Shown here: positions 25,623-59,236 of the stretch, piece by piece | How positions within the stretch are numbered: position 1 is the first letter of the stretch | Layout of the letters: each line of letters begins with the position of its first letter | Source of the DNA: Mesostigma viride | Lineage: Eukaryota; Streptophyta; Mesostigmatophyceae; Mesostigmatales; Mesostigmataceae | Length of the DNA: 64,000 nt | Direction of reading: 5' to 3' | Assembly: GCA_009746045.1 (NCBI GenBank) | Contig: RPFO01001181.1 | Location: 1 to 64,000, forward strand | Notes under the pieces: generated by a model | The model's input: only the letters and a program-made list of their open reading frames with translations | What the model was told of the DNA's origin: nothing | Databases searched by the model: none | Position numbers and translations under genes: made by a program

Positions 25623-25967
25623 AGTTGAGTAACTCTAGAGCCCTAGGATCTGGCTCTGAGTTCCCCATGTCCGTCCGCACGCCATCCGCTAGCGTCCGCT
25701 CAGCCGCCGGCTATAATCCGGCGGTCCGATGCGGGCGACCGGTCTAAGGGCGGCGCCTAGGGCCGGCGCCACCTAGGCCCCAGTCCGGGGCCTTATCCGG
25801 GTCAGTACGGACGGCTAGCTTGTCCCACGGTTACGGCTAACCGGATAGGGTTTGCTGGCTAAGACATAAACCAGTGGTGGGCCAGCTCCGACAGTAGTTC
25901 TCTGTGTTCACCTTATCCCAAGCTCAACGTGACCGACCGCCATAGCTGAGCCGGTCGGGCTTTAACT
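25623..25967 (+). repeat. family A 5' LTR
   Basis: 345 bp, AGTTGAG to TTTAACT. Contains a 7-bp stem (CCGCCGG/CCGGCGG) with the loop CTATAAT, a possible TATA element, near 25694-25714. Confidence 0.92.
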
Positions 25968-25979
25968 TGTATTCATAAA
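25968..25979 (+). promoter_or_regulatory. primer-site region complementary to 3' UTR (family A)
   Basis: TGTATTCATAAA begins at the first base after the 5' LTR, where a tRNA primer site (usually starting TGG) is expected. Its exact reverse complement lies at 31080-31091, 27 nt after the pol stop. It could serve RNA cyclisation or priming. Confidence 0.55.
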
Positions 25980-25986
25980 AATCCCG

Positions 25987-26826
25987 ATGGCTTCCGGTAC
26001 ACGGAGCCGCACGGGCGAACACACAGATACGCCAAGTGGCGAGGCCGCAGGGTCCGTCCTGCCACGCTTTAGTGCGGACGAGGCCACGAGGTTGATGCAA
26101 ACCCTCGTGGCGCAACCTGAACTGGCCAAGCAGTTCAAGCATCTCATGCTGGCTGCTGACGATGCACTAAATCGCGGCCCTCTCAAGCAAACGGAGGTGC
26201 CCGCAGATCTACCGGCCGACTATACGGCGGACGACGCAGCAGATTTTCTAGCTGCTCTCAAGCGTCTGCGCGATGGACGCGCAGACAAAGATTCGGAGCT
26301 GATTGGCAAGTTCCGTGCAGTATTCTGCAGTACAACAAAGCACCCAAACATTGCCAATCTAGTTCGCATTGCGGACGACAACAAACAAACCTGGGAAGTT
26401 TTTTACAACGGTCTAGATGCCCACTTGTCGCGGTCTAAGGAAGAGGCCGACGAGCAAGCCTTCAACGACTTCGAGGGCTATGCAGTTAATAAGGCAAATT
26501 TGCCCGGGGCTGCACGTGATTTCCAGGTCTTCGTGCACAAGCACAAGCTGCTAGATACTCTCAAGCCCATTTTCCTGTGCAATCGATTTCTCAAGAAATG
26601 CGACCTGTCGTCGGATGTGCATCTGACCATAGCGACGGAACTCAAAAAGAAGAGTGCCGTCAGTTTCGACGAGGGCATGCTGTATTTGATTCATGCTTCA
26701 AGAGTGCGCAGTCCAAGCCGGCTGCCTCGGCTGCTCTGCCATCCCTGCGCAAGGTGGATGCCGGCGCGTCTTCTTCTTCAGGCGCAGAGGCTCCAATTAC
26801 GCGGTCGGAGCTTACGGCCATCCTGA
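25987..26826 (+). CDS. family A gag, N-terminal part
   Basis: First ATG after the LTR, 20 nt into the internal region. The true gag reading runs to about residue 236, where the frame changes into 26577-28016; the last ~40 codons of this frame are probably not native. Helical, charged, with no catalytic motif. It resembles the capsid-type gag of retrotransposons in position and composition. Confidence 0.7.
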   Translation: MASGTRSRTGEHTDTPSGEAAGSVLPRFSADEATRLMQTLVAQPELAKQFKHLMLAADDALNRGPLKQTEVPADLPADYTADDAADFLAALKRLRDGRADKDSELIGKFRAVFCSTTKHPNIANLVRIADDNKQTWEVFYNGLDAHLSRSKEEADEQAFNDFEGYAVNKANLPGAARDFQVFVHKHKLLDTLKPIFLCNRFLKKCDLSSDVHLTIATELKKKSAVSFDEGMLYLIHASRVRSPSRLPRLLCHPCARWMPARLLLQAQRLQLRGRSLRPS

Positions 26827-28016
26827 AAAAGGTCGTCGGCCACGGCAACAACGGGGGCCAGCGAGGGCGCAAGCGCGGGCATGGTGGCGACGCCAAGCAG
26901 GGTGATAATCCCCCGGCCAAGCGGCAGCAGGGGGCGTCTACTGACCGCAAGCAACGCTGTGAGCGCTGCTTCGGACGTCGCCATGTCCGGGATGACTGCC
27001 GAGTTCGCCCGGACCTGGAGCTCGAGGACAACCTTTGCCGCAAGTGCCACGACGTTCTGCGTGGTCACAGCGTGGAGGCGTGCAAGGCCAAGCGCATCGT
27101 CGTCCACGGCACACGCGAGGAGTGGGCAGAGCGACGGGCAGCACGAAAGTCAGGTGAGAGCACGCTCGATACCCCTTCTTTTGCTCAATGCGTCACGCTG
27201 AACCGGGCCGTCGTAGAGCCTGACGTCGTTCCTAAAAGCAACGTGACTGCATCCTCTGTCTCATTCCGTGATGTGCTCACGCAATCCGTTGATGCTGCTC
27301 TGGCTCTGTCGCGCCAGGATCACGTGCTTCCTGAGCACGGGTCTACAATGCGTGACCTAAGCAATGTGGTGTCTTCTAGGTCGGGTGTGTACAACGCCGA
27401 GCGACCAAGCACTACTGCAGCACCCCAGCTAGATACTGGGGCGGTTGGGCCTATGAGGAATGTTGTGACAGTGCAAGAGAATGCTGGGCGGGCAGATGTT
27501 CTCGGTACACACCACCCTAGTGTGGATCTTCACATTGGCAAGGTGCTCACACGGGCGGCCTTTCGTGCAGCCTCTGAAGCTGCCCAGTTAGCCAATGTCA
27601 CTACCCCAGTAGTCACCCCACCTGTTGAGAATCCTGACAATGCCACTGCACCTCAGGCTGTCACCCTGAAACTGTTAGCATACCAGATGCACCGTGCATA
27701 CGGGCATGAGGCCCAAGCCGAGGTAGAGGGGGCACACATGTTGGGGGCACCTTTATACAACGAGCTGAAGAATGTGCGTGCTCAGTGTCCTGCCTGCATC
27801 AAGATCAGGAAGAAGTCGCGTAGGCGGCATGCCAAGACTCCACCCTTGGAGCGAGGGTACCTTGTGGGGGATGTCATGCACATGGAAGGGGGGGACACCT
27901 ATTTCATAGTCAAGGATAGGTTCAGCAAGGCCACCTACATTGAGCCGCTGCCCACATGTTTGAGGCTGACCTGCACAGGGCTATCAAGATCAGCCTGGCT
28001 TTCTTTCATCCCGTAG
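26690..28016 (+). CDS. family A gag C-terminus, zinc-binding region and integrase N-terminus
   Basis: The open frame begins earlier (26577), but native reading starts near 26695. A Gly/Lys/Arg-rich stretch (26840-26930) is followed by Cys pairs (CERCFGRRHVRDDC, then CRKCHDVLRGHSVEAC), a likely zinc-binding nucleic-acid module. Integrase starts with HRAYGH and CPACIK, an HHCC finger, then GDVMHMEGGDTYFIVKDRF with the first catalytic Asp. The frame changes at about 27954. No protease precedes the integrase here, unlike standard copia order. Confidence 0.75.
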
Positions 28017-28768
28017 TGGAGCTCATGCTAGACCAGCAGTTCCGCTGTGTGCAAGGTTTGCCGGGGATGGAGGCCGTGGTCATCGTGGGGCGTGAGGATC
28101 ACGGCAATATGGGCATGATAGATCGCACTGTAAGCTATGTCAAGACTGTGGCAGCCAAGCGACAGGATAACCCACATGGCAAATCCTACGCGGTCAAGAC
28201 GGCGTGGTGCAAGGAGCTCATGCATGTGTGCAACCATAGGCACGTGCTTGATGTCAAGGGCTTTGGGCTAGTCACGCCTCGGGGGCTGTCAGCGGGCACC
28301 TACTCACCCGAGGTAGTAGAGGCATACCAACAGCATCTACAGGATACCGCCGCCAAGCTGCGGCTCAAGGATGCCACGCTGCCTGATTTGTCTAGCGCTT
28401 TTGAGGTCGGGCAGTTGGTCATGTTCCACAAGGAGAGCTCGCCCAGCGGCAAACGGGGCACCATGCAGGGGCCTGGGGCCATCACAAAGTTAGACTGGCC
28501 GCTGCGGGTCATAGACATAGAGTGGAATGATCGGGTGTATAGGGTACCATGGGCATCGGTGGCAGGCTATAAGCAAGGGGATAGCATGGAGAGTGAGCTG
28601 GCAGCCAACAGGGCACTGGGGTGGGTAGTGAAGGATAATGCGCCTGTCGTAGCATCTGAGGTGGTACCCCACGGGTCGCTCCCAGGGGCAGACACAGCTA
28701 CACCCCCCCCTCCCCTGGGCCCCAATATGACCCCGTGGATGGGTGGGATGAGGATGGGGTGGGTTTGA
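27956..28768 (+). CDS. family A integrase core and C-terminal domain
   Basis: Carries the second catalytic Asp in LMLDQQF. The third site reads GMIDRTV, with Asp where families B and C have Glu (GVIERT, GVVERA). An SH3-like module follows (FEVGQLVMFHKE ... GKRGTMQGPGAITK ... VYRVPW), similar in layout to the GPY/F region of gypsy integrases. An Asp-for-Glu change in a DDE integrase would be expected to reduce or alter activity. Confidence 0.75.
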   Translation: MFEADLHRAIKISLAFFHPVVELMLDQQFRCVQGLPGMEAVVIVGREDHGNMGMIDRTVSYVKTVAAKRQDNPHGKSYAVKTAWCKELMHVCNHRHVLDVKGFGLVTPRGLSAGTYSPEVVEAYQQHLQDTAAKLRLKDATLPDLSSAFEVGQLVMFHKESSPSGKRGTMQGPGAITKLDWPLRVIDIEWNDRVYRVPWASVAGYKQGDSMESELAANRALGWVVKDNAPVVASEVVPHGSLPGADTATPPPPLGPNMTPWMGGMRMGWV

Positions 28769-31053
28769 CGGGACCTAGTGCACGTAGTGACTCACCTCCT
28801 GTGCTAGCCACGGATAATGTGGGAGGCCCGCCTAGCGTGGCCTCGCCGGAGGGTCAGGGTCCTGCCCATGCGCCTCGCCCACCTAGGGACCTGGCTTCAA
28901 CGGTCACGGCCTTGTGGCGTGCTCAGGCGCTTAAAGCGAAAGCTGCATCAGGGGTGGCTCAGGTCAAAACTCTCTCACAGGGGGTCAGGCCGGTTAAGTC
29001 AGCCTTGTTTCCTACGTGTAGACCGTGGCAGCTGGTGGCTGTGGACACGCAAGCATCCGTGTCTATTATCTCTCGTCGGGCAGCCACCCTGTATCCAGTG
29101 CTAGAGTCGCCGTACAAATCGGTGACCGACTTTGCAGGCACTTCGGCATATCAAGTTACCGGGATGGTGGTGCTGCCGGTGTTGGGCATTGACACGCCGT
29201 TTCACGTCGTGGATGGCTACGAGGATGTGGCCTTGCTGGGCGAACCTTTCGTATCATACCCGGGGTTCTCAGTGTCCGCTGACTTGCTGTCAGTCGCGGG
29301 GGTGGGCAGCATCCCGCTTCGCGAGTACCACGCTCCATTGGGGGTGGTGGTCGGGCAGCCCGGCGTCGTGCGGCGCTTACCGATGGCGGCGTTTTCCACA
29401 CCGCCGCTCGTCCAGTCCATCATTCAGCCTCAGGATTGGCACCCGCGCAGCTTCGGCCTCCACTCACACTCACTGGCGGCGGATAGCCCTGTGACGTGGG
29501 AGCAACTTGTCCTGGACTGTCAAGATCCTCTCAAGTTTGCTTTGTGGCGCGACGCGTTCATTCGAGCCAAGGAGCAGTGGCGAGAGCGCGAGGTCTACCG
29601 AGGATTGGAGAGTGTGCCAGCCGGGGCCACGCGGTTGCGGTTGAAGTTCGTGCTCACCTACAAGCCGGACGAGACCAACTCTTCGGTGGTGTTCCGGGTA
29701 AGGCCCGTGGTCACGGAGACGAAGGGGTCCTCCCCGCTGGATGCCAAGGATCTTTATACCCCTGGGCTCAACCATGTTTCGCATCGGCTACTGACGGTCA
29801 TCTACTTGGGCAAGCGGAACGCGGGCAAGGACTACGGGATGTGGTGCGGTGACTTTCAGCGGGCATTCCTCCACAGCGACGCTGGGGTCGCGCAGCAAAC
29901 ATGGCAAGGCACCCGCTACGTGGTGAAGGTCCCGGTGGTCTGGCAGGATGGCACCATTGGCAGCGAGTATATCGAGCTGTTGACAGGGGTGGAGGGGCTG
30001 CAGAGCTCTCCCATCATCTTCCGCATTTCCGCGGAGGAGGTCTTGCAGAGCTTAGGGGCCACGTACCATCGCGCGGATCCTAACTTCTTTGTGGTCCCCA
30101 CCGGCGTCCCTGGCGAGCCAGCCCTCTTCGTGTGGCATGGCGATGACTTCAAGCTGGTGGCACCTCGCACCTTTGCTACCCAGTTTCTTGCTGCAGTGGC
30201 GGCTAAGTTTCCCCTGGGCAGGGCGGTGGATCATGAGGAGGGTAAACCCGTGGTGTTTTGCGGCGTGCAGTCTACGTTGCAGCGGGATTCGCGTTCTGGC
30301 GAATGGGTCATGCACATGCAGGATAGCCGCAACTATGTGGTTGACCTGCTGGCCGACCTCCCGTCCCCGCTGTTGGCAACCCATGGGCCCTCGGTTAAGG
30401 GCAAGCTCGGGTGGTTGGCGGACACGGTGGCACCTGATTTGGCAGTGCTCGCTCGCCTGCCCGATGATGTGCTGGAAGGACTAGGGTCCATTCATGTTCG
30501 GCGGCAGCTGGCCATGACGCCCGGCATTGTGCTTCGTGGGCTCGATTGCTCACAGCCGGTGCACCTCGAGATAGTGACGGATGCTAATCTAGAGACGCGC
30601 ACAGTCAGCCAAGTGCGGGCCCGCATGGGGGCACTGTTCTTTATCAGCAATGAGGGCCAGCCTGGCATGTTGTTAGATTGGTACTCGCGCTTGCACAGCC
30701 GCATTGCCACTAGCCCCAACACGGCTGAATGCCGGGGCATTGTTTCAGCTATCTCACATGGCATGTGGCTGCGGTACTTGCTGGGTTGGGTATTTGGCTC
30801 GTGTGGGTTCACTCTTCACTGGACTAGCACGGTGCACACTGACTCACAAAGTTGTTTGGCCTTCCTTGACAATCCCTATGCGCGGTCACAGGACGTTGAT
30901 TACCTCGTACTCGCTGAGGCGGCCTCCTGCGTCACGCGTCTCCAGCACATCGCGGATGAACTCAATCCCGCGGATGCACTCACCAAGGAGGCGCGGGAGG
31001 CTGCCCCGCAGTACGCAGTGTTGCGCAAGCGCATGACGATGCAACACCCGTGA
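28735..31053 (+). CDS. family A protease, reverse transcriptase and RNase H
   Basis: 772 codons. Retropepsin-like domain: VDTQASVSII at about residues 101-110 and ALLGEPF at about 165. RT: KFVLTYKP and RVRPVV, GDFQRAFLHSD (about 373), GVEGLQSSPIIF, then VWHGDDF (about 468) in place of the copia YVDD box. RNase H: VTDANLETR (about 614), WYSRLHSR, AECRGIVSA, TDSQSCL (about 702) and a final NPADALTKE. Protease follows integrase, contrary to the copia order PR-IN-RT-RH. Confidence 0.88.
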   Translation: MDGWDEDGVGLTGPSARSDSPPVLATDNVGGPPSVASPEGQGPAHAPRPPRDLASTVTALWRAQALKAKAASGVAQVKTLSQGVRPVKSALFPTCRPWQLVAVDTQASVSIISRRAATLYPVLESPYKSVTDFAGTSAYQVTGMVVLPVLGIDTPFHVVDGYEDVALLGEPFVSYPGFSVSADLLSVAGVGSIPLREYHAPLGVVVGQPGVVRRLPMAAFSTPPLVQSIIQPQDWHPRSFGLHSHSLAADSPVTWEQLVLDCQDPLKFALWRDAFIRAKEQWREREVYRGLESVPAGATRLRLKFVLTYKPDETNSSVVFRVRPVVTETKGSSPLDAKDLYTPGLNHVSHRLLTVIYLGKRNAGKDYGMWCGDFQRAFLHSDAGVAQQTWQGTRYVVKVPVVWQDGTIGSEYIELLTGVEGLQSSPIIFRISAEEVLQSLGATYHRADPNFFVVPTGVPGEPALFVWHGDDFKLVAPRTFATQFLAAVAAKFPLGRAVDHEEGKPVVFCGVQSTLQRDSRSGEWVMHMQDSRNYVVDLLADLPSPLLATHGPSVKGKLGWLADTVAPDLAVLARLPDDVLEGLGSIHVRRQLAMTPGIVLRGLDCSQPVHLEIVTDANLETRTVSQVRARMGALFFISNEGQPGMLLDWYSRLHSRIATSPNTAECRGIVSAISHGMWLRYLLGWVFGSCGFTLHWTSTVHTDSQSCLAFLDNPYARSQDVDYLVLAEAASCVTRLQHIADELNPADALTKEAREAAPQYAVLRKRMTMQHP

Positions 31054-31079
31054 GCCACACAGGGTTACGGCTCGGGCGC

Positions 31080-31091
31080 TTTATGAATACA
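31080..31091 (+). promoter_or_regulatory. 3' UTR site complementary to primer-site region (family A)
   Basis: TTTATGAATACA is the exact reverse complement of 25968-25979. It lies 27 nt after the pol stop and 339 nt before the 3' LTR. Confidence 0.55.
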
Positions 31092-31430
31092 GCCATAACT
31101 CACCCTGTGTTGCTAGCATTCACGAATATCATGGTGGTAGTTTTTTTGCTTGTCCTGACCATACCCTAGCCACGTTGGACGGTGCCTTGGGCCCGTCGGC
31201 GGGTCACTGGTCCTAATAAATGGGTCACCTTTTGTCTGGTGGCATAGTTGTTTTTTTCTCGCTACTTATTACATCACTATTCATGTGTGATCACAAGGGC
31301 GCGGGTCGATACCGTGGTGATTTTGACGGCCTTGAGGCCCCCTTGAGTTCCCTACCTTAGAGGGTTTTGTATGGTCTGCATTTGATGTAATTATTTTGAT
31401 AATTAATCAAAGAACAAAAGAGTATGTCGG
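31092..31430 (+). other. family A 3' untranslated region
   Basis: Non-coding. No strong polypurine tract precedes the 3' LTR; AAAGAGTATGTCGG is the best candidate. Confidence 0.5.
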
Positions 31431-31775
31431 AGTTGAGTAACTCTAGAGCCCTAGGATCTGGCTCTAAGTTCCCCATGTCCGTCCGCACGCCTTCCGCTAG
31501 CGTCCGCTCAGCCGCCGGCTATAATCCGGCGGTCCGATGCGGGCGACCGGTCTAAGGGCGGCGCCTAGGGCCGGCGCCACCTAGGCCCCAGTCCGGGGCC
31601 TTATCCGGGTCAGTACGGACGGCTAGCTTGTCCCACGGTTACGGCTAACCGGATAGGGTTTGCTGGCTAAGACATAAACCAGTGGTGGGCCAGCTCCGAC
31701 AGTAGTTCTCTGTGTTCACCTTATCCCAAGCTCAACGTGACCGACCGCCATAGCTGAGCCGGTCGGGCTTTAACT
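31431..31775 (+). repeat. family A 3' LTR
   Basis: 345 bp, two substitutions from the 5' LTR (G/A and A/T within the first 60 bp). Followed by the GACAT duplication. Confidence 0.92.
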
Positions 31776-37186: not shown

Positions 37187-37191
37187 GCTCC

Positions 37192-39050: not shown

Positions 39051-39054
39051 TTAA

Positions 39055-41055: not shown

Positions 41056-41073
41056 CCAATCCTTTCTTTTCTT
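41056..41073 (-). other. family C polypurine tract
   Basis: On the minus strand AAGAAAAGAAAGGATTGG directly abuts the 3' LTR, the expected plus-strand primer. Confidence 0.75.
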
Positions 41074-41227
41074 GAGCTGTAGCAGCTCACACAAGTCTAC
41101 ATACAAACACACACAATGGGTACTGGACATCCTCCCTCGACTACAAGTCACAACCCGCTGGGCATGACAGTCAGCTTGGATTCCTTATTATATGTACATA
41201 GCACCCATACTGGCTCAGGAGCACAAA

Positions 41228-43799: not shown

Positions 43800-43800
43800 C

Positions 43801-44281: not shown

Positions 44282-44655
44282 CCAGTATTGTTTTATTATT
44301 TATTTCTTAATGCAGGTCTGCACCCCCAACATTATTGTTATTGTTTTTAAGTTGATTAGGGGTACAAAAGAGACATGGCTGGTTGAGCCAGGTTGGTTAC
44401 AGCTGGCTGTTCTGGCCAGGTGTTATATTGCACATTAAATAAGGTGTACACAGCTGGCTGGTTTGGCCAGTTACTGAAGCACACATTAAGTAAATGGATA
44501 CAAAGCTTGTGTCCTCAAGCTGCAAATGGATACAAATCTGACCTAGCCAGCACTCACACCCCACAACGAATGTGTTGAATTTTATGGCGCCCAGCAGCTA
44601 TCGCTGTGGTAAGGGGGTGTGGTGGTTGTGTACTGTGCTATGGCCAGTCATTTAT
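44282..44655 (-). other. family B 3' untranslated region
   Basis: Between the RNase H stop (about 44656) and the 3' LTR. Contains the site complementary to the primer region at 44575-44585 and repeated CAGCTGGCTG/GGCCAG words near 44380-44480. No ORF recognised. Confidence 0.55.
44575..44585 (-). promoter_or_regulatory. 3' UTR site complementary to primer-site region (family B)
   Basis: Plus strand TTGAATTTTAT; the sense strand is complementary to the last base of the 5' LTR plus the first ten internal bases (50948-50958). It lies about 70 nt after the pol stop. Confidence 0.5.
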
Positions 44656-45428
44656 TCAAACACTGACTCTGATATCATAGGGGTTCATGTTCTGAAAGAG
44701 GAGCTGGTACTGTTGGCCAGCAGCATCCCGCAGCTTCGTTAGAGCGTCTGCTGGGTTGTCCTCATCATCCACATGAGTCCAGCTGGAAAAATAGGTGGCC
44801 TCCTGTTTGAGGATCACCCAATCCAAGTCAGTGTGGACAGCAGCAGAACAGATTTCTTGGTTAGAAAACTGATCACAGATTGGCTGTCAGTATAGAGATG
44901 TGAGATGACATTGCATGTGCTGCCTGCCTGGGTTTGTAGCCAGGTGAGCATGTGCTGCAGGGAACGAGCATGCAATGCAGCAGACACCACAGCACGACAT
45001 TCAGCTGAGTTGCTGCTGCCAGGTTTTCTGCGGTGTAGCCTGCTGTACCAGGAAGTGAGGGACATGTAATCTGACCTGTTGGTGAGAAAAAACAGCCCTG
45101 ATTCCCGTGCCCCCATCTGATTGATTGTTCTGCTCTCCATGGAGCTGTCCATGACACATTGGATGTGGATGTCTTCCATCAGATTCAGGCCATGGAGGAT
45201 GAGGGGGGGACAGTCATTGACCAACTTCCTGATGTGACTGCATTTTATCTTGACTAGAACATCATGGGTGACCCTGCTGATGACAGCTAAGGGAGCCCCA
45301 CAGATGGCTGACCACCACCCCAGTTTGCCCTGAACAGTGGCACACATATGTAAGGGGAGGTAGTGTCCTGCAGCAGATCTAGACAATCTTGGATATATTC
45401 TGCAGGAGGGGAGAGAGAGCAGACCCAC
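44656..45428 (-). CDS. family B RNase H (frameshifted from pol)
   Basis: Follows the 1321-codon ORF in another frame: VMDSSMESRT, WYSRLHRRKPGSSNSAECRAVV, LYTDSQSV. One more frame change after about 44825 leads to the end DDEDNPADALTKL and a TGA at 44656-44658. RNase H removes the RNA strand during reverse transcription. The breaks suggest this copy is not fully functional. Confidence 0.8.
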
Positions 45429-48400: not shown

Positions 48401-49252
48401 CTGGGACCGGTTCTGGCCCTGCTGGGACCTGTTGTTGTTGTTGTTTTGGCCCTGTTGGGACCTGTTGTTATTGTTGCCCTGCTGGGACCTGTTGTTGTTA
48501 TTGTTGTTGTTGTTGTTGTTGGGGTTTCCATGCAGGGGCACACGGTGCCACGTGTTGCCACGCCCCTGAGAGCCACTGCCCCCTTGGTGGGAGGACTTGT
48601 GGGTCTTGGGTGCCCCCCCTGGCTGGCCTGCCCCTTGCGTTTGTGGCCTTGGACACCCTGGACCTTGGGGTCCTGGGCCTGGGTTGCCAGTACCCAGGGG
48701 GTCCACTGCCTCCTCGATATAGAGCATGGCAGCTCTGAAGTTGTCCCAGAGGGACTTGAGGCCTGTAAGCAGGGTAGCCAGGACAGAAGGTTGCAAATTA
48801 GCTTTTGTTAGCCAGGTGTGGATGAGATACCTTGGTTGGAGCTTGAGAAGCTCAAGGTCTTTCTCAATCATTACCCTGTATGTTTTTGCATCCCCAGAGA
48901 GGTTATTCTTGTTCACCTTATATGCAGCAAGCCAGTTGAAACGTTCTACTGCTTCCATGTGGTTATTGGTAAGCACTAGCTGTTTCAGATCAGTGATAAA
49001 GGTAGGCCACTGTTCAATGGCTGCTTCAGGTGTCAGGGTACGTTCCTGATAGGTTTGAATCAATGCTCTGATTGCAGGAGATGATTGATGGAATGTGGAG
49101 GAGGCCCTGAGAGCCTTAAACTGATGTCTAAGGTTAAGACCTTCCATCCCATACTCCAAGCAAAACAAATTGCTTAGCTTGTTCAACAGTGTGACCCTCA
49201 GGCAAGCCAGCAATATTGATTTTGGATTCCTTTTTATGAGGGTTAAACACAC
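45287..49252 (-). CDS. family B gag C-part, integrase, protease and reverse transcriptase
   Basis: 1321 codons. Gag-like helical region about residues 30-240; Gly/Asn/Gln low complexity about 240-300; zinc knuckle CLRCFQRGHARHNC about 305. Integrase: HLAMGH (about 419) and CQEC, first D in GDVMHI (about 481), second in LLDQQF (about 539), E in GVIERT (about 567), SH3-like module with GKVGTWLGPVTI (about 670). Protease: IDTQAQVSVIS (about 851) and LLGEPF (about 917). RT: TDIKRAFLRGD, then VWHGDDQL (about 1221). Integrase therefore precedes protease. The frame is lost just before RNase H. Confidence 0.9.
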   Translation of the reverse strand: MCLTLIKRNPKSILLACLRVTLLNKLSNLFCLEYGMEGLNLRHQFKALRASSTFHQSSPAIRALIQTYQERTLTPEAAIEQWPTFITDLKQLVLTNNHMEAVERFNWLAAYKVNKNNLSGDAKTYRVMIEKDLELLKLQPRYLIHTWLTKANLQPSVLATLLTGLKSLWDNFRAAMLYIEEAVDPLGTGNPGPGPQGPGCPRPQTQGAGQPGGAPKTHKSSHQGGSGSQGRGNTWHRVPLHGNPNNNNNNNNNNRSQQGNNNNRSQQGQNNNNNRSQQGQNRSQQGNNNNNNNNNQPGNPGGSIRCLRCFQRGHARHNCPNNDSLANGVDLCPGCWHARHPLGPPGSRCNRPRYPNQCEFTHLMYSEDDDLITIGDGNQGIIDFEAATLLSSQHPVLEPYIKALTPTVDNSIDIKELAHQLHLAMGHETVAEELARRLGGSSMGKQLRNAVKLARQHCQECQFNSPKPQKWHTATPSTNRGMIVGDVMHINKDVQPYLILKDSWSRFTVMEPLPGMSAGQLRVALMIALPRFYPVDRILLDQQFSCLTDLEGCEAIEIAGLEDHEGQGVIERTIRSVKTLLAKNPSKDATSGVYCDRALWCHEMCTTLNMRPVLHATWGEVIPAGLQAGVYPPEVIALYNTARAQTSAKLAEKDKTHSRPVFQKGDQVLYYKENSFGKVGTWLGPVTIRGFTKNSKTVEVKHNINGKRHRVSCHRIKKYYSPMADVPGEESLSMDSLLLSGNSSMPSSSSEPPITAVDSTTAPSVNPSTLSEARPTSQPGDCLTRHEVAGLEALAQPQGTKLSANPPALRSRLAVALQALHRSHKQQAAVAAGLAKVSAVCTSQDPWTLAIDTQAQVSVISAQAIPGLEIAPSFWARVQDFSGQSSLDVVGQVMLPILGIQTPFQVVEGYSGNTLLGEPFVSYPGVLISANELSVTGVGAVPLDHFKIPLSSIVPGMDAVIKAVNTQYAPGEIPDLDKLVHSQFLHPSAFGLGKWDIAMHSPHQISHVIQECKTQKGFTKWLMAIVHQARQEWVLPNPKNPQYKPPVTPSWDVPEGAKKLRLKFVLKQKPQKVGSPIFHARPCVTELKGTSTLPKGETYTPGLQQTSLRIMLSLFLHNLNAGQDYVCKATDIKRAFLRGDPEKAESVWKGKVYVVDTPAVWKPYIDEPHLIINIGVEGLVSAPKIFRDSAEEVFKKLKATYDDLDPCFFVVPTPSGLLFFVWHGDDQLICGPRAEVETFIQQVQESYEIGKQVELSTTPIQFCGIMLQLHRQPDQWVCSLSPPAEYIQDCLDLLQDTTSPYICVPLFRANWGGGQPSVGLP
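48366..48534 (-). repeat. Asn-run/RSQQG repeat in family B gag
   Basis: TTG/TTA triplet runs on the plus strand encode long Asn stretches separated by five RSQQG or RSQQGQ units. Low-complexity, Asn/Gln-rich, prion-like composition, directly before the zinc knuckle. Confidence 0.9.
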
Positions 49253-50939
49253 CTGTGAGAGGGGGGTTGGCCCTCAAGAAGCGTCGGTTGCTTGTTGCAG
49301 GCGGGTGGGGTCCAGGTTGATGGTCCCCCGCTCATACCGCGACATCAGGGCGCGCAGGCCCTCGACAGTTTGCAGCTGGTTAGCTGTTAACTGCTGATCT
49401 TGCAACGAGGCCAGCTGGCCTGGAGAATGGCGAGCTGTTCCAGGACATCCCCGCTCCTTGGGGGGGCCTCAGCAGGTTGGTGGGTGCCTGGGCACCTCTG
49501 CACCTCCCCCCAGGGCCTCCTGGGGTCCTGGCCACCCCCCCTGGTTTGGGAGGGGGCCCCAACCCACAGGGCGAACCTGGGGTGGTGGGGGAGGGGGAGG
49601 GGGGCCGTGGTGGCCCGGGGGAGCCCGGGGGGTCCGGGTAACCCCACTGGGTCCAGCCCCATCGGTGGAGGGGCGGGCAGGGGTGTCTGCCGCCGCTCTC
49701 CTCCTGGCCTCCTCCTGCATGAGACGCTTCATCTCCTTGCGTACCTCATGCTCCCGGAGGGCTGCCTGAAAGGCAGCCTCATCCTCGGGATGTCAGGGAG
49801 GGTTCCCATGATCATGGCCTTGACTGGACTCGCCTCTTGCCCTTCCTGGGCCAAGGCCAGCAGTCCCTCCTTGTACTGCAGGGTTGGGGGGAGAGGGTTT
49901 CTTGCTGGTGGTTTCCAGCGGGGGGGCTTCTTCAGCTACCACCCCATGTTTGGCCAAGATGGCCTCCGTGACCCTGGCTTGGGTTATGGAGGACATGGTT
50001 TTAAAATGTGCTGACCGAGCAAGCTCGGCCAGGTCTTGACCATCCGCATAGTCCATCGGATAGTCAGCATTTTTGAGGAGGTCACGTAACCGCTGGTGGC
50101 CTCGCGGTACGCGCCGCCATCGCCTGGTGGTGGCCAGGCGACGGGCGGCCTCCTCCTCATATTCTTGCCGCTTAGCGGCGAGCCGAAAAGCCGCCTCTCG
50201 GCGGACCTCCCGGTCCGCTGCCTCGCTCGGCGTTCTTCATTTGCCACCAGCGCGGCCTGCTCGACCGCCAGGAGCGCTGGGGTAAGATTGATCTCAGTCT
50301 CCCCATCGGGGAGACTGGCAGTGTCGGATACCTCATCGTCGGACATTGGTTGTCCTCCGATGGGTTCCACAGGTTTACGCACCACCCGTGCGAGTTTAAT
50401 GCTCTCCATGTCCTTCTTCTTGCGAAGAAGGGACGCGATGGTCGCCCAAACGTTAGCTCAATGTGATTGTGTCCCTGGGCGAAAGGGACATTAAGGTTTG
50501 ATGTGGCGGGACGAAAGGTAATCGTCCCGTCCGGCGCCACCGAGGCCGTCTGACGGGGCATACGCTCCCGAATAGATGGCAACGGGGGCCGAACTGTGGA
50601 GCCTCAGTGGGGTTTACCACCGAGGTCTCCGCAGCCATGGCCGCGCCAGCCGTGGTTGCGGCTGGGGCAGCCGCCGGAGTCGAGGGTAAGCCGGTCCCCG
50701 GGGGGAGCCGTCTCGGCCTCCGGCTTCTCAGGGGAGGGGGGTAGGTCGGTCGGCTTTGCAGCCGCCGTCCCCTCGTCCTGGCAAACATTGTGGGTCTTTT
50801 TGTTCTTTTTCTTTTTCTTGGAAATGGCCGCATCGCCAGCCGGCTTCTGGTTGTTGTCTTTGGGCATCCGCCGATCCTGCCCATCATCATCCTCGTTGAA
50901 GTTAAGCTTCTTAGCGACATACTTGTTCGTGATAGCCAT
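49253..50939 (-). pseudogene. family B gag, N-terminal part, frameshifted
   Basis: The likely start is ATG 50939, 19 nt after the 5' LTR. The first ~70 residues are Lys/Asp-rich (KKKKKNKKTHN), then the reading passes through at least four frames, including a MESIKLARVVRKPVEP segment (50409) and an Arg/Glu-rich helical segment around 50100-50250. Pro/Gly-rich coding at 49470-49730. Either decay or sequence error; it cannot be translated as one protein as written. Confidence 0.6.
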
Positions 50940-50947
50940 GGTAGCAA

Positions 50948-50957
50948 ATAAAATTCA
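50948..50957 (-). promoter_or_regulatory. primer-site region complementary to 3' UTR (family B)
   Basis: Sense strand TGAATTTTAT, first ten bases after the 5' LTR; complementary to 44576-44585. It does not begin with the TGG normally seen for a tRNA primer site. Confidence 0.5.
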
Positions 50958-51430
50958 AGTTAGAATGCGGTGGGATATATTGCTTGAGAACACTGTAGGC
51001 TGTGAGCAATGAATTGCTTGGTTCATTAGAAAATAGGTTTACCCTTTATCAACGTTCCTCTCGCTGGCTGCGCCGCCAGTGACCGTTGGGTGCAGACCGT
51101 TGGCCCGAGGCCGCACGATGACAGGTAGCTGTCTAGTCACTGCATCGTGCGATCACAGATCAATGCACGCTGCAGTACGGTCCCTATCTAGGATACTCTA
51201 GTACCGTCCAATGACAGGACACTACGTATACTGGGTACTGACATCTGTCACGTACCTCAGTACCCAAAGTACCTATCTAGGGAAACGTATGCGACTCGAC
51301 TAGCATTCCTATCTGCATAGCCCACGTGGTATTTATATTCACATACCAACGTAGGTTTACAAGGCTTATTCATACGTTGTATTCACAATGCCTTTGAGAC
51401 TTAGTCTACAGCAAAGCATGGAGACTAACT
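50958..51430 (-). repeat. family B 5' LTR
   Basis: 473 bp, AGTTAG/CTAACT termini, followed outside by ACAAC. Confidence 0.93.
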
Positions 51431-51485
51431 ACAACGTCTCCATCTGCAAGGTCCAAGGGGTAACTGAAGCCAGCTCCAGCATTAA

Positions 51486-53396
51486 GGGGACTCGCACGTC
51501 CAAAAGCCTGAAAAACAGACTTTAGTGAGTATCAGTTCCAATGCACATGGGAACCATCTAGTGATGATTGGGTACCATAAATATGATGTTTGGACATTCA
51601 TACCACCACTTGTTGGGGGTACTACCCCCAACCACGCACCGGTGGCGAGCTAAAAATAGAAAAAGACGCTATTTATGAGATATTTAGCCCAAGACAAACC
51701 ACTTGTCTAAATGACCTGCCCATACATACCTGCAAAGTTCCCCCACTTTTTTAAAAGCTGGGCTATTTACATGGCCAAAATGGTCACATTTGTTTGAGTT
51801 ATTAATTTTCCCGCAAAATGGGTACTTTTTTGAGCCAAAAAAAATAAATCAAATCATTAACACATCAGATTGGGTCATCCATACATGCGATATTCCACTG
51901 AGTAGGGGGAAACACAACCCCAAAGTTTGAGCTCATTCTGACAAGCGTAGCTCAACTTATTGATTTTCCTGTGATGCCACCTGGGTAGACGCTAAAAGAC
52001 AATTGAGCTAGTGCTGAGCCAAAATGACATCTGTTTTGCTACCCTAGACACCCAAAAACATGCCCACTTTGATCACGGAGTGTGAGGAGGATGTCCGGAG
52101 CGTCATACGCCCCACCCCTCCATCGGCACAGCCAGCCTTGTGAGTCTACCCTTAACAACAAGGCTGGTAGGACGACACGCCTGAGCAGCATATGTCATGC
52201 CTATCTCAGGCTAATAATGTGTGATTTTGTGCCAACAACCAAGTTGTTCCACCCAACAACACATTAAAAACCCTGTTCCAAAATGGCCAACAAGCCGGAC
52301 ATGTGGAGGACCACACACGCAGTATATAAAGAGAAAATAAGCTGACTTTTTATCCAGCCAACCTGTGGCTAGCTGCTCTGGTTAGCATGACAAAGGCTAT
52401 CATTTACTCAGTGGGAAAGGTGAAGAGACCATTGGAACAACCTACCTGACGCATGTGCCACCAAAGCATTGTGTCCCGCAAAATGCACACTGCCTCCTTT
52501 CTAACAAGCACGAGCCACTTTCTTTAGGAGACAGGTGCCAGCTCGTCAGTGTCTGGGGAAAATGATGCCGCTGCTTAGGAAGACCGCGTGAATTTCCTCG
52601 AACACAACTGTCTATAAAGCAAAAGAAATTTCAGAGAAGCATGGAAATAAAAGCATTACACCTTCCCGACAGGTTGTGGGCCACGCGCTGCAGCAAGCCA
52701 GCCGCGTCACAGACGAACATGCTAAAAAACATCCAGGAATCTAGCGATGCAGCGCCAGGACCCGCAAGTTCATGGCTGCATCTGGCCGGAAAGAAGGCAA
52801 AAAGCTTACGCTCAACGAGCTAAGAAAGCAGGAAAGCGCTATCTTAGGACGTTTAATACAAGAACGTACCATAACGGGCATTTATTCGTGCCCAGGCGCA
52901 CAAGAAAGGCCACCCTTTCATGGAGAGGTCGGGCGCGCATCGCGCAGGCCTAATGTTATCTTACCGCAAAATGACGGGAAAGGTAAAGACAGCAGCGGGA
53001 ATTTTTACGGCTTTAGAAACATCATTAAACTAGCTTCCATTAGGACCATCAAAACTGGCATGCAACAATCGACAATCACACGGGCAGGCATCCATTATAC
53101 TTTATTCATCCCGACAGAAATTCAGGCCGGACCCCCCCTGCCGATGGTAAAGAAAAAGAGCCCGCGACATTATAGATCGCAACTATCCCACCATAAATTA
53201 GAATCAGTCACTAATTTTCTCCAAGAATCGAGCATTTTTTCTGCTTTCCGTGAGCCAGATTTGTCACGTTTCGTCTAAAAGCAGTCGCCATGGCCACTTC
53301 CGCAAGGGGTGCGCGCACCGTGCACCCACTTCTCACGGTACGGAGGGTACCGCGGAATTTTTTTGGCGCGGAAAATATTCGCCGCGCCGAGTCCCC
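51486..53396. mobile_element. TTAA-type DNA element, 1.9 kb
   Basis: Starts GGGGACTCG and ends CGAGTCCCC. The left flank is TTAA (51482-51485), the right flank TTTA (53397-53400), so one TSD copy is probably mutated. Shares a long stretch with the palindromic element 39055-39707: GGGGTACTACCCC, GTGGC-AGCTAAAAATAG-type wording, GACCTGCCCATACAT and GAGTTATTAATTTTCCCGC. It is likely the non-palindromic relative of that MITE. No transposase recognised. Confidence 0.75.
52772..53278 (+). CDS. hypothetical ORF inside TTAA element (168 codons)
   Basis: Open frame of 168 codons, basic and hydrophilic, with no motif I recognise and no DDD/DDE triad evident. It could be a transposase remnant or a chance ORF. 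Low confidence. Confidence 0.25.
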   Translation: MAASGRKEGKKLTLNELRKQESAILGRLIQERTITGIYSCPGAQERPPFHGEVGRASRRPNVILPQNDGKGKDSSGNFYGFRNIIKLASIRTIKTGMQQSTITRAGIHYTLFIPTEIQAGPPLPMVKKKSPRHYRSQLSHHKLESVTNFLQESSIFSAFREPDLSRFV

Positions 53397-53400
53397 TTTA

Positions 53401-56400
53401 TGTACAGGCTGGACTGGATCCCCTCGCATATGGCCCTGCATTCTGCCACATCTGAACTGATACAGACCCTCTTCTGCAGTCTGCTGTACCAGCTGAACAA
53501 ACTTGCCCTGCTCTGATAAAAAGCAAACAGAGCAGCAGATCTCCCCCTGACCTTGGTAACCTGGCGAGCATCCATGGAACTGTCAACAAAGATCTCCAAG
53601 GTGATAGGCTGGGCAAAGTCAATCCCAGACAAAATCAGATCAGGGGTACTCTCCACCAACCGGGCTATGACTCGAGGCTTCTCATCCTCAAGCACCTCAT
53701 CAGGCATTCTGCTATGGACCGTCAAAGACGGACCACAGATGCTGGCAAACCAGGCCCACATGCCTCTCAACTCAGGTCCTGCAGCCTGGGTGATCTTCTC
53801 TGGCAAGGCCAGCTTCACAATGGTCTGTTTATAATCTCCTCCAGCCTGAAGCCTGATACTCCACTCCCCATCCCTCCTGAACAGGGTAGCCTGCATTCCA
53901 CAGAACACTACAGGCTTGTTGGGCTCCTGCCACAGCTCCTTGCCCAGTGAAAACTTGCCACTGATGACAGGAATAAACTTCTTCAGCCAGGTCGTGGGGG
54001 CTAGCAAATGCAGATCATCTCCATGCAAACTAGCATACACTGGCAGACCCTCCCATTGGGCCAGCAGCAAACAGGGATCAACTGAAGACACTCTCAAGCC
54101 ACACTCACTGATCAGAGCTTCCTGCAGCGTGAGTCTCCAGATGATTGGGCTCGACCTGAGTCCTTCCAGGCCCTTCAGAATAACCAGGAAATGTTGATGC
54201 AGCTCCAGCTTCCAGATAGCAGGCACCTCAACACAATAAGGCTCATCCTGCTTCCACACCCTCCTGGCCACTTCTGGATCAGATTTTAAAAATGCCCTCT
54301 TGAAGTCCAGCAGCACTGATGACATAGCTGCTCCCCTGTTCAGCAACCCCACGTAGAGACATAGCAAAATTCTCCATGTGTCGTGTAGCATCCCTGGCGT
54401 GTACAGCTCCTCTCCTGGCAGACTCCCCGTGCCGTGATACTCATTCAGGACAGGCCTGACATGGGGCACTGATACCTCATCCACAACCTTCCTCTTCAGC
54501 ACAAATCTCAAAGCAAGCTTCCTTGATGCTGGGGGACGTCTGTCTGTTGGTGCAGCACACTCAAACTGCAACCACTCCTCCAATGCCTTGGAGAAGGCGA
54601 GCTTCCAAGCCTCAAACAAAGTAGGCGAGCTCATCTCTTGGACTAGCTGGTCATATGTCAAAGGAGAGTGTGCAGCAAGGCTCCTGTGAGTTATGCCAAT
54701 ACTGCTGGGGTGCAACACAGCTGGAATCACCAAACTGGCTGCTGGGGGCACCTCCCCTTCATCCCATTTTACACCCTTGACCGGCTTGACCCTGCACCTG
54801 ATTGGAAATGTTGTCCTGAAATTTTCTAGGGGAATCATCCCCCAGCCATCTCTTTTCAGAGCTGTAGCTCTGATAGAAATCCCAGGATTGCCCAGAAAAT
54901 TCTGACCCAAAATCACAGGGCCATCATAGTCCTCTAGGACAAGGAAGGTCACATCCACACCCATGACAGGGGCAGTAACCTCTCCCAACACCCTTAGATG
55001 CGTCCTACCACTGAAATCAGACACCCAGGGGCAACTTGGTTCTCCGACCAGCAGTTCTCCTGTATGCTGAGGTCCCATGACAGAAACCTGTGCATTGGTA
55101 TCTATCTCCATGGCAGCTACCTCAGGTTCATCCAACTGGACAAGCTTGGACACCTTAGGCTCCTTCTTGGCTCTTTGCAAAGCCTGTACAATATCTGATA
55201 GACGCACACCCCTAGGCCTGGTGTCGGGCCGTTCCGGAGGTGCAGCCTGTCCGCCTGCTTGCCCAACCACCGTATGTGAAGGTACCCCAGGGGCCGGGCC
55301 AGGGTCACCCTGAGGGCTCGATACAGCTGTAGCACCCTGATCAGGAAGCTCCACGTCACCCCCGCCTTGTACACCAGCGGGCACCTGGAAGAGGTCTCCT
55401 TGATTACCTCCCCGGGGACGGATCTTTGACCAGGACAGACGGTGCACTGCTTGGGAGCCATCAATGGCCACCCAGCACTTATGGCCAGCGGCTTCTACTC
55501 GGGTCACCACCCCATCATGCCAGCTGCCACGTTTCCCTGGAAAGCTTGGTTCCTTCCACACAACAACCTGTTGTCCAACGTTAGGTTCTAGGACACTCCA
55601 GCCCTTGTCTTTCTGCCTCAGCTTGAGGAACTTGGCCTCTAGCTTCTCCTTCCATGCCTGCTCAGCATCAGCTGGCAGCATCCTGGTATGCAGCATAAGA
55701 GGATTGATGGCAATGTCACCAAAGAACATGGGAGTCCTGAGGTTCAGCCTATCCTCCACAGAACGTAGCCATGCAGATGTCACAATGGCAGATGACGTCC
55801 TTGGAATCCTCTCCACCAGCAGCACAGTCTTGATCTCTTGGATGGCTCTCTCCACCACCCCTTGCTGGCCGTGGCTCTCCCTGGGTGTAATCAGCAACTC
55901 TGGAAACTCTGGCAGGTTCTCACAGCACTCAAACTGAATGTCACACTGCAACAACTCCAACCCAGGGTACCTGCTCCTTGTCAACTTCAGAGCAGCAATT
56001 AATGTAGGCTTCTCCATGTCAGGCAGGATCTCTAGGGTCTTGTACTTGGTATATCTGTCCACTGCCACCAGCAGCTTCAAACCCCTGATTCTCTGAATAT
56101 CTACCTGCACATGGCCTGGCTGCAAAATAGGAGTCCTGGCATGAGACTGCTTGGGCTTTCTAGCAACTAGCCTGCACTTGCAAGCTTGAGCAACCTGTTG
56201 GCAGATGGAGTACAACTCACTTCCTCCCAGCCGTCTAGCAACTTGCAAAGACTGAGCTGCATGGCCAAACATGGTATGCAACCTTGAGGCAATGTCATAC
56301 AAGAGAGAAAATCTTTTATTGTCATTATTAGCACTCAAGGTATGTACAGATCCCTTATGTACAGGAGGCACCAGGGTCGTGCCTGTCAGACTGTCTCCAG

Positions 56401-56665
56401 CCCTATCCTCATCCTGACCATCCTGTGCCAGTCCTGCACGGTCAGAATGCTTCTGAGATCCACCTGGGTCCACATCACCAGGTCCTACCTCAGGCTCAGC
56501 ACCGCCATGGCGGGCACGTTGGCGAGTAACCACTGCAGCTACAGCTGGCATACTCTCTGTGGTAACCAAGCTTGCCCCATCGTGTCCAATAGGCTCTTTC
56601 ACTAGAGCATGGGGCTGCCCCTCACTGCCGTCACTAGCAGCTACATTACACACCCCTGGGGGCAC
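53401..56665 (-). CDS. family C pol: integrase, protease, reverse transcriptase, RNase H start
   Basis: Open from 56665 (and upstream to the TGA at 56699-56701) until the TTAA element; about 1090 native codons. Integrase: HTMFGH (about 130), CKC instead of CxxC, D in QVDIQR (about 188), D in QCDIQF (about 240), E in GVVERA (about 270), SH3-like module with GKRGSWHDGVV (about 390). Protease: IDTNAQVSVM (about 525) and VILGQNF (about 583). RT: LDFKRAFLKSD, GLRSSPIIW, then SLHGDDLH (about 882). RNase H start: IFVDSSMDARQ (about 1030), WYSRLQKR, AECRAI. The last ~20 codons to 53333 lie in the TTAA element and are not native. Confidence 0.9.
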
Positions 56666-56698
56666 CCTCCAGGGTTCAGGGATGTGTGCAGGCTCAAG

Positions 56699-57067
56699 TC
56701 AATGATCAGCAGCCTTGCCCTTGCCCTTGTCCTGGGATGGACCAGCCTTGTCCTTGCTGCCACCCTGAGCTGGCTTGCTCTGACCTTCCTGCCTCAGGTA
56801 CGAGGGACACTCATTCCTGAAGTGACCCTTCCCCTGGCAGAAATAACATTCCACCTGACTGATGTCCCGTGAGGTCCCACTGCTGGGCCCAGCCTTGGGA
56901 GGACCACCCACCCTCTTGAAGTCAAACTGGGACTGTGGATGTCCCGACTTCGGCGGGGTCCCCCGTCCAGCCCTTCTGTCACGCCCCCTCCTGGACCTTC
57001 CTCGACCCCTTGAAGAGGTCTCAGGCCCTCTCGAGGGCGCTGGGCCCCCGTGGCCCGATCCCCTCAT
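56699..57067 (-). CDS. family C gag C-terminal part with zinc knuckle
   Basis: Arg/Gly/Ser-rich basic segment followed by CYFCQGKGHFRNEC (about residue 75), a CCHC knuckle for RNA binding. It ends with a TGA followed by C (TGA CTT) in the same frame as pol, with an open frame directly after it. Its frame differs from the main gag by one shift near 57105. Confidence 0.8.
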   Translation of the reverse strand: MRGSGHGGPAPSRGPETSSRGRGRSRRGRDRRAGRGTPPKSGHPQSQFDFKRVGGPPKAGPSSGTSRDISQVECYFCQGKGHFRNECPSYLRQEGQSKPAQGGSKDKAGPSQDKGKGKAADH

Positions 57068-57083
57068 GGACTTAACCGCAGGT

Positions 57084-57875
57084 TCAGCGGCCTCCTCGTC
57101 CCCTGACGAGGGCGCTTACCACCACGTACTTGCCGCTGAAACACTCATACAACTGGTCCGTCATGGCTGCCCAGCCATGGACCTGTCGCATGTGGATGGT
57201 CACATTATCCATGGTGACCGGATCCAGCTGCAGCGACTTGAGAAAGTCGCCCATGGCCATCCGATCTGCGACGAAGAAGCCCTTGGCCATGGCGTCCTCC
57301 CTCAGCTTGACGAAGTCTTCAAAGGCGTGGACCACTAGCTGCCCCTTGATGGGCTTGTAGTCCAGGTATTCTTGCTTCAGGTGGGACCCATCTATGGTCC
57401 TCTTGTCACTCAGGAATACCCTGAGTCGCGTCATAAACGCCGCCCAGGTGTCCCCCGCCGCGTGTCGCTCCCGAACAAACTTGAACAGCCGCCTCGCCGA
57501 CTGCCTTATGTAGGCACTAGACGCCAGGATGCGAAGCTTGTCACCGGTGTATATCTCCGTGTACAAGTTCATGTCCTCTAACATCCTCTCAGCGTCCCGG
57601 GGCTGCCAATTGTCCTTGATGGACTGAAACTGGCCTAGCACCGCGTACCCCTCAGCCACGGTCGGTCGCTTAGGCGCCGCTTGATCTGCGGCTGGCGCGT
57701 TCTGACCGCCCTGCGATCCTTGGCTCTGATCATCTGGCAGCGCAGCCTGGTCTCCCAGCGCCTGGCCGTCCCCGCGTCCATCGCGTCCACCGCGTCCATC
57801 GCGTCCATCTATCCCAGCGCCGCGCCGCGCAAAGCCCATAAGGCGCGCGTGTTGGTCAATAGCACCCTCACTCAT
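57084..57875 (-). CDS. family C gag, capsid-like part
   Basis: 263 codons. Gly/Arg/Asp repeats (GRDGRGGRDGRGDG) near residue 22-38, then a helical region about 80-255 (LFKFVRERHAAGDTWAAF, FLKSLQLDPVT) typical of copia-type capsid. The real protein probably continues into the zinc-knuckle frame through a shift near 57105. Confidence 0.75.
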   Translation of the reverse strand: MSEGAIDQHARLMGFARRGAGIDGRDGRGGRDGRGDGQALGDQAALPDDQSQGSQGGQNAPAADQAAPKRPTVAEGYAVLGQFQSIKDNWQPRDAERMLEDMNLYTEIYTGDKLRILASSAYIRQSARRLFKFVRERHAAGDTWAAFMTRLRVFLSDKRTIDGSHLKQEYLDYKPIKGQLVVHAFEDFVKLREDAMAKGFFVADRMAMGDFLKSLQLDPVTMDNVTIHMRQVHGWAAMTDQLYECFSGKYVVVSALVRGRGGR

Positions 57876-57970
57876 GATGGCCTCTGTTCAGATCTGCTAC
57901 AGCCAGCCAAGTGGCCAAGCAGCAATTAAAGCAATATAAGCTACTGAACAAGAAAGGAAAGTGCCAAGTG

Positions 57971-58898
57971 TTACCACTCAGGCAAGACCACCACGGTCGC
58001 CCCAGGCGCGTCCTGGTTCTCCTTGTCGCTGTCGCTGTCGCTGTCGCTCACCACAATCAGCTCTGGCACCCTGCTACCCGCTGCGCCGTCGTCGACCCGC
58101 TGTCGGCCCGCGATGACAGAATCGTCACCGTTGGTATAGTAGAAAGGTGACCACCCGTCGTTGGCACCCCGCGGATTGTATCTTGGCACCTCGTGGTCGC
58201 CAAGTGCCTCGTCGCCTAGCCCAGCGACGCCCACTGCTCCCACCTCAAGGTCACTATCGTAACCAAGAGGGGCAAACTCTTCCCAACGCGTCACACGAAC
58301 GCGAAGGGGTTGGGGCAGTTCCTGAAAAGGAACCCTTGCTCGCTCCGGAAACCTGCCGACTCGTGCCGCACGCTGTCCTCCGGTGATGGCTTCCGCTGCC
58401 GCCCCGACCTCTGCAAGCCGCCTGTAGTGCTCCGCTCCGCGTCGTTCACGTCGAACTGGTCCCGCTGCAACACCCTCGTCGCCGATTACGCCTGCGAAAG
58501 TACTTGGTACACCCGCACCCGCTGCTGCCGGCACGAACTCGTGTCGCACTGCACCAGCTGCCTCCGCAGCCTCTCCTCGCCTAGCCGCCAACTCCGCCCG
58601 CACCCGCTCAGCTACTGCTGTAATCACCGTAGTGGATGCCGACCAAACCGTGAAGCTCTTGCTCGAGGTCGTCGATGCTCCGGTGCTCCGGAATGACGAT
58701 GGTTTGGACGTGCCGCAGAATTCGCTCCCAATCTTCGACCTGGTCGTCGACGAATTGCACGAAGCTGCGATTAACAGGCAGACGATCTGCAAGCAATAAA
58801 GATAAATCTCGAACGACACGACGCAATTCAGGCGAAATTGAACCCCCAGCAGACTGCCGAAACCGGAAATTCTGCTGCCGTTGTTCTTCCTGCACCAT
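57971..58898 (-). pseudogene. family C leader ORF upstream of gag, one frameshift
   Basis: It starts at ATG 58898. The first ~90 residues are helical with a VEDWERILRHVQTIVIPEH stretch. Near 58620 the frame changes to one that runs to 57971, Ala/Arg-rich and ending in an acidic tail (SDSDSDSDKENQ). No recognised domain. It may be an additional element protein or the N-terminal part of gag. Confidence 0.45.
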
Positions 58899-58981
58899 TC
58901 ACCACCGGACGAGCTCCTCGCGTCGTCAACGCTGCACACCGCAACCAGCAACGACCCTCCTGGCCGTTCCGCTGAGACTGT

Positions 58982-58991
58982 TTGTAATTTG
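58982..58991 (-). promoter_or_regulatory. primer-site region complementary to 3' UTR (family C)
   Basis: Sense strand CAAATTACAA, starting at the first base after the 5' LTR; complementary to 41228-41237. Confidence 0.45.
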
Positions 58992-59236
58992 AGTTAATGT
59001 TCTTATGAAACGCAATGTGAAGGATATGGTTGCAATGCAGCAACGTGTGAATATGGTTGGAAACGGAGCTTTGTTAAAATTGGATAATGTTACAGCGCTC
59101 ACACACTTGAGGCTTGTACACGCGTTTGCCAAGTCAAGGCAACACACGTGAGGCGGGCTCGCAAGAGATGCCCAATTGGCACTGGCCTATTCTTTATATA
59201 CTTGTGCACTGTGCTTGCTAGTCCTGAGCAGCCTAG
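58992..59236 (-). repeat. family C 5' LTR, truncated by gypsy insertion
   Basis: Matches 40358-40602 with few changes, then stops at the gypsy LTR. The rest should lie beyond the window, after the gypsy element. Confidence 0.85.

Follow-up and report, generated by a model that had tools for sequence, protein, structure and literature searches.

We analyzed a 64,000-nucleotide stretch of the genome of Mesostigma viride (positions 1 to 64,000 of contig RPFO01001181.1, forward strand; hereafter the window), a basal streptophyte alga (PMC6947507). The window is made up of nested long terminal repeat (LTR) elements. Three of them, here called families A, B, and C, are genuine LTR elements, each lying inside another or inside a Ty3 element. 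All three encode the integrase ahead of a retropepsin-like domain, the order that the initial annotation had proposed, and this domain stands directly before the reverse transcriptase (RT). They probably represent a deep offshoot among the copia-related LTR retrotransposons, one in which integrase precedes a putative protease.

Families A, B, and C in the window

Family A (25623..31775, forward strand) has GACAT on either flank and sits within the first of two Ty3 chromovirus copies, whose LTRs start with TGTTAC at 20206 and 36614 and whose two ends are flanked by GCTCC. The 5′ LTR (25623..25967; AGTTGAGT...CTTTAACT) and the 3′ LTR (31431..31775), the latter directly preceded by GG, are 345 bp long and differ at 2 of 345 sites. 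On the same strand follow a gag frame (25966..26826), a CCHC zinc knuckle identified by pattern (26958..26999), a DTGA motif in the linker ahead of the integrase (27432..27443), and the integrase itself (27699..28126), with an H-x3-GH finger at 27699-27710, the first D at 27864-27875, the second at 28028-28042, and the third acid, a D in GMIDR, at 28112-28126. The protease-like domain, RT, and RNase H share a frame of 797 codons (28660..31053), which includes a DTQA motif (29044..29055), a second protease motif, LLGEPF (29233-29250), and the RT box HGDD (30136..30147).

The reading frame of this copy is broken at three points. The break in gag is not present at locus L037, where gag and the zinc module are joined in one frame. 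In the integrase region, two copies besides that of the window were read. L035 has the same integrase break as the window copy and L036 lacks it, and all three carry the shift that separates the integrase part from the protease-RT part. Sequencing error is an unlikely cause of this last shift, as the 797-residue frame from the protease-like domain to RNase H is kept in all 58 genome matches listed. Since this frame lies in −1 relative to the integrase part in the copies read, we infer a programmed frameshift between the two. Where the frames overlap (28660-28768), all three of these copies contain eight consecutive C residues. The sole slippery heptamer found in the overlap, GGGTTTG, is out of register and was rejected.

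Family B (43801..51430, reverse strand) has ACAAC on either flank and is inserted in the RNase H region of family C. Its 3′ LTR (43801..44281) is 481 bp long and its 5′ LTR (50958..51430) 473 bp. The main frame (45287..49273, reverse strand) covers part of gag, a zinc knuckle (48296-48337), the integrase (47537-47980), an SH3-like barrel, the protease-like domain (46385-46744, with DTQA at 46688-46699), and the RT, with HGDD at 45575-45586. RNase H (44814..45440, reverse strand) is in a different frame in the window copy, which is broken ahead of residue 29 of the long frame and again within RNase H.

Family C (40358..59236, reverse strand) contains B plus one other insert, and both interrupt its frame. 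The second insert, of approximately 1.9 kb (51486-53394), lies in the RNase H region of C and is not in the copy of C at L031. The 3′ LTR (40358..41055; AGTTAACG...CATTAACT) measures 698 bp. The initial annotation had assigned C an LTR of 245 bp and had misread its span accordingly; the 245 bp (58992..59236) are the piece of the 5′ LTR left where the second Ty3 copy, which begins at 59237 with TGTTAC, cuts the outer LTR at 59236/59237. A gag-like frame (57084..57887, reverse strand) was assigned by position, and this stretch recurs in L033. The long frame (53333..56698, reverse strand) encodes the integrase (55847-56269), an SH3-like module, the protease-like domain (54788-55147, with DTNA at 55091-55102), the RT (HGDD at 54014-54025), and the start of RNase H. 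The C-terminal part of RNase H, with ADALTK (43561..43800, reverse strand), was identified directly in the sequence; it lies beyond the B insertion and is continuous with the frame in L031, a copy that is 99.4% identical to the window copy over 3442 bases. Locus L032 contained no C sequence. At L034 (positions 923-3001), two C elements of like orientation are close neighbours, a 3′ LTR being followed by a second LTR with internal sequence, and the ends of these copies are like those of the window 3′ LTR. The zinc module, previously claimed for all three families, is present by pattern in A and B and was not found in the two C frames tested.

LTRs beginning AGTT and ending AACT occur in three of three families, as had been noted, and in each GG stands before the 3′ LTR. 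The 5-bp target duplications described for A (GACAT) and B (ACAAC) also stand, and for B they are corroborated by an unfilled target site in L031, a C copy without B, which gives the same 5-bp overlap. That of C is not readable. Directly behind the LTR, where the sequences are TGTATTCAT, TGAATTTTA, and CAAATTACA, there is no TGG-type primer site. Self-priming was considered and set aside: the 20 bases behind the 5′ LTR are no more complementary to the LTR than are shuffled sequences.

We searched the host genome (439.9 Mb in 2243 contigs), scoring only the best candidates, so that all match counts are lower bounds. Family A has at least 58 matches, each 100% identical over all 772 residues. 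Together with the near-identical LTR pair of A, this supports recent activity of the group, in line with the first reading of the window. Family B has at least 37 matches at approximately 35 places, as some are pieces, and 30 loci were fetched. In the longest motif-bearing frame DTQA is present at 30/30 loci and HGDD at 29/30 (it is not shown in the L016 frame); 16 of the 30 read through to ADALTK in one frame, and frames reach 1767 codons.

Two further families were added. A protein search in which 8000 candidates were scored returned three matches at E ≤ 0.01: P0002 (jgi/Mesvir1), 100% identical to A over 81% of the query; P0003 (jgi/Mesvir1), at 46% identity; and P0004 (an ENA protein), at E 0.0098. 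The B protein used alone as query found no relative among 8000 scored candidates, and no relative was found in the viral contigs scanned. P0003 represents a family of the same genome with at least 71 matches, some of them pieces, 13 of which have a frame of 1249 residues. P0001, an ENA protein, is C-like, and at least 38 genome matches to it all have a frame of 1196 residues; one of them (L031) was read through.

Domain order and the protease-like domain

The same order is found in all five families: integrase, SH3-like barrel, a retropepsin-like domain with DT[Q/N/M]A, RT with HGDD, and RNase H. Integrase and RT were recognized by profile or fold matches, RNase H by motifs, and gag by position. 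The order also holds in copies with open frames and in P0001, and the one P0003 copy read has integrase, then DTMA, HGDD, and ADALTK. We regard as established the domain order, the ends of the LTRs, the target duplications (A and B), the young open copies, and the copia kinship of the RT.

As a control we used conventional copia elements of the same genome. An RVT_2 search gave 1981 candidates, of which 150 were scored, all above the cut-off (148-178 bits). Four open reading frames (ORFs) from this list (L041-L044) were retained, and L045, a truncated copy of the L042 family, was dropped. The four encode gag, protease, integrase, SH3, and an RT with FVHVDD (RVT_2 at 146-173 bits), and their Pfam order is Pol_BBD, rve, SH3_retrovirus, RVT_2 in 4/4, with rve of L044 below the cut-off. 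Because these ORFs have protease before integrase, placing the integrase first is not a general trait of the genome. Published work gives the same copia order, gag-protease-integrase-RT-RNase H, for the 5410 elements it describes (PMC6317226), an arrangement absent from our five families with one reservation, the upstream DTGA of A discussed below. The LTR of the L043 element has TG...CA ends with AAAAG on both flanks, followed by TGGCATCGGAGT, a TGG primer site; that of the L042 element starts with TG, and its end was not read. The new group thus differs from host copia, as judged from the one element with both ends read, in having AGTT...AACT and no TGG.

The identification of the DT[QNM]A domain as a protease is putative and rests on motif and position. 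Several observations weigh against our interpretation of the order. All five families have Q, N, or M in place of the glycine of the protease triplet, so that none shows the retropepsin D[TS]G triplet (they have DTQA, DTNA, or DTMA), and the domain had no significant match to proteases. In addition, A has its DTGA between the zinc module and the integrase in all three copies that cover this region (window, L035, and L036).

The DTGA raises the possibility that these are ordinary, fast-evolving copia elements of a known clade, in which a real protease upstream of the integrase, degenerate or spliced, has been overlooked. A copia-type RT and an RNase H ending in ADALTK would fit such elements. 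However, the 94-residue linker of A that contains DTGA falls among its own shuffles against three protease profiles (125th of 282 for host copia, 192nd of 301 for Ty3, and 72nd of 286 for the new-group profile), and Pfam finds no family in the linker frame of the window at E up to 10. None of the 30 B loci has an upstream D[TS]GA in any same-strand frame of at least 60 codons, nor do P0001 and the C frames tested; the P0003 family has none in the 1199 codons covered, only approximately 70 of which precede the integrase. Moreover, the host copia ORFs show their Pol_BBD protease plainly in 4/4, and the new RTs fall under the RVT_2 cut-off. An overlooked upstream protease is therefore improbable. 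The earlier statement that no conventional protease lies upstream of the integrase holds for B, P0001, and the C frames tested, and needs qualification for A, where DTGA is more likely a chance occurrence or a remnant than part of a diverged protease.

A different objection is that the putative protease is inactive or is a beta barrel of some other kind, processing being left to a protease of the host or of another element. The lost glycine and the lack of protease matches speak for this, and changes of the glycine abolish the activity of HIV-1 protease. On the other side, all five families retain D, T, and A of the triplet, and in all of them the second motif (LLG, ILG, or LIG) still has its glycine. 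Three of the four host copia proteases read DSAA (L041, L042, and L044; the remaining one has DTGA) and likewise lack the glycine, and its loss may be a general habit of this genome. The protease of feline foamy virus may also read DSQ, which was not confirmed on checking. In 28 pairs of eight B loci the protease-like domain has no differences, as does the integrase, and with so few differences among B copies, selection tests by domain are weak. Across the span from integrase through RNase H, L003 and L007 differ by 12 silent and no amino-acid changes, and L003 and L008 by 10 silent and two amino-acid changes; L003 and L012 show 12 silent and 18 amino-acid changes, so not every copy fits. In these dN/dS comparisons the RNase H values of L001 pairs were dropped (L001 is out of frame there), and L012 has no RNase H value. 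Taken together, we consider a dead or non-protease barrel the less likely reading.

The predicted structure has a pLDDT of 50-69, and there is a match to the protease-RT of 7sjx over 565 columns, which may or may not include the protease-like domain; no protease chain is among the 50 matches listed, an absence from which we draw no meaning. Against Protein Data Bank (PDB) sequences, the protease profile found nothing, the protease-RT-RNase H profile gave one unrelated match (E 3.6), and the B protein gave five matches, all unrelated.

Kinship of the reverse transcriptase and integrase

By profile comparisons, the RT of the group is copia kin, not Ty3. A profile of the five new RTs matches the four host copia RTs at E 1e-9 to 3.9e-7 and P0004 at 4e-8, whereas the Ty3 RT scores 2.6. 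In the reverse search, P0004 was matched at 3.6e-10, P0001, C, and B at <1e-4, P0003 at 0.004, and A at 0.019, against 0.2 for the best of 1000 shuffles. RVT_2 matched two of seven members of the new group at E up to 1 (B at 22.2 bits and P0001 at 15.5, with a cut-off of 31.6). In a tree of 11 RT sequences, whose only references were the four host copia RTs, P0004, and one Ty3 RT, the five families form one clade (98/99) apart from the four host copia RTs, with warnings for long branches and for the composition of P0004. The coherence of the group suggested at the outset is thereby supported. The HGDD box is present in 3/3 window families and is less telling than had been supposed. It is not private to the group because P0004, an RVT_2 protein from elsewhere, has VVHGDD, and host copia RTs have FVHVDD.

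The group shares with Ty1/copia (Pseudoviridae; L041-L044) a copia-kind RT, integrase before RT, a terminal RNase H with an ADxLTK-like end, and H before the DD of the RT box, and differs in placing the protease-like domain after the integrase instead of before it. With Ty3/gypsy and retroviruses, including foamy viruses, it shares a protease directly before the RT, LLG/ILG as second motif, and an integrase core fold with an SH3-like end. In Ty3/gypsy and retroviruses the integrase comes last, as in the Ty3 element of the window. Here it comes first, and the RT is not of the Ty3 (RVT_1) kind. Foamy virus protease and RT are described as staying fused (PMC6669543).

One alternative is a chimera, in which a copia-type RT and RNase H were joined to an integrase and protease of Ty3 or retroviral kind. 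The integrase profile matches the Ty3 integrase of the window (E 0.015) and none of the four host copia integrases; hhalign gives E 0.0005 with Ty3 versus 0.054 with copia integrase, and most of the integrase fold matches listed are retroviral integrases. The second protease motif LLG/ILG also points this way, ILS being given as usual in copia (PMC2642776). However, these scores are low and are not confirmed by searches in the opposite direction. The Ty3 integrase is also matched, at 1e-6, by the profile of the host copia integrases, so Ty3 is perhaps just nearer the middle, and ILG is the general state and could be ancestral. A chimeric origin is thus a tentative suggestion, and a side lineage of copia is preferred.

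Unusual orders and ends have precedents. Ty3-like elements with a copia-like order were reportedly described by Goodwin and Poulter in 2002. Such elements go by the name Gmr1. They resemble the new group in the swap of domain order and differ in their Ty3-like RT, whereas here a copia-kind RT is combined with integrase before protease. Exceptions to TG...CA are already in print, as TARE1 of tomato is reported as a copia-like element with LTRs starting with TA (PMC3701649).

Proposed replication, rank, and surroundings

Replication would follow the usual LTR route. Genomic RNA would be made, gag and pol translated, and the RNA copied by RT and RNase H, after which the integrase, presumably adapted to AGTT...AACT ends, would insert the cDNA by a 5-bp staggered cut. 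The order gag, integrase, SH3-like barrel, retropepsin-like domain, RT, and RNase H would place the protease directly before the RT, and the DT[QNM]A domain would be an active protease that releases the enzymes. In family A, a frameshift, perhaps at the eight-C run, would confine the protease to the longer product, with integrase made in amounts equal to gag.

Whether the group merits the rank of an undescribed superfamily is evenly balanced. The case would consist of an RT and RNase H of copia kind, a retroviral-like integrase carrying a Tudor/SH3-like barrel, a glycine-less protease between integrase and RT, cDNA ends peculiar to the group, the lack of a tRNA-type primer site beside the LTR, and a frameshift in one family. 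If this holds, LTR elements can relocate or replace even their protease, and the DTGA ahead of the integrase in A could be a trace of its old place. We found no description of the integrase-before-protease order or of the HGDD box in such elements in the open-licence papers searched, so the lineage is possibly undescribed, which is consistent with the literature searched, not proven. Mesostigma genomes have been described as repeat-rich (PMC6947507; PMC7027972), with LTR elements numerous according to the former report, and neither main text contains the word copia.

Domain order is used to sort LTR elements, with copia defined by protease, integrase, and RT, and this rule may have an exception. 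One plant survey states that elements with unexpected order were removed as likely wrong predictions (PMC6317226); a recent lineage with many copies and a deviating order would show that filters of this kind can discard real lineages. The group would also serve as a natural experiment on which residues of the protease and which LTR ends are dispensable to an LTR element.

The rest of the window holds several minor features. The first Ty3 chromovirus has a frame of 812 residues (21148-23586) without a Pfam match between its chromodomain frame and 3′ LTR, and the second copy has a shorter frame at the corresponding place (60878-62011). Rfam and tRNA scans of the whole window gave no match. Approximately 25 kb (8-25008) align with their own reverse complement at 97.7% with 423 gaps, approximately 12.5 kb per arm, for which a fold-back read artefact is likelier than a biological palindrome. 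Tandem units of approximately 110 bp occur at 9246-9654 and 15289-15718, one set per arm of this inverted repeat. A near-palindrome of 660 bp (92%; 39051-39711), perhaps a foldback element, adjoins family C.

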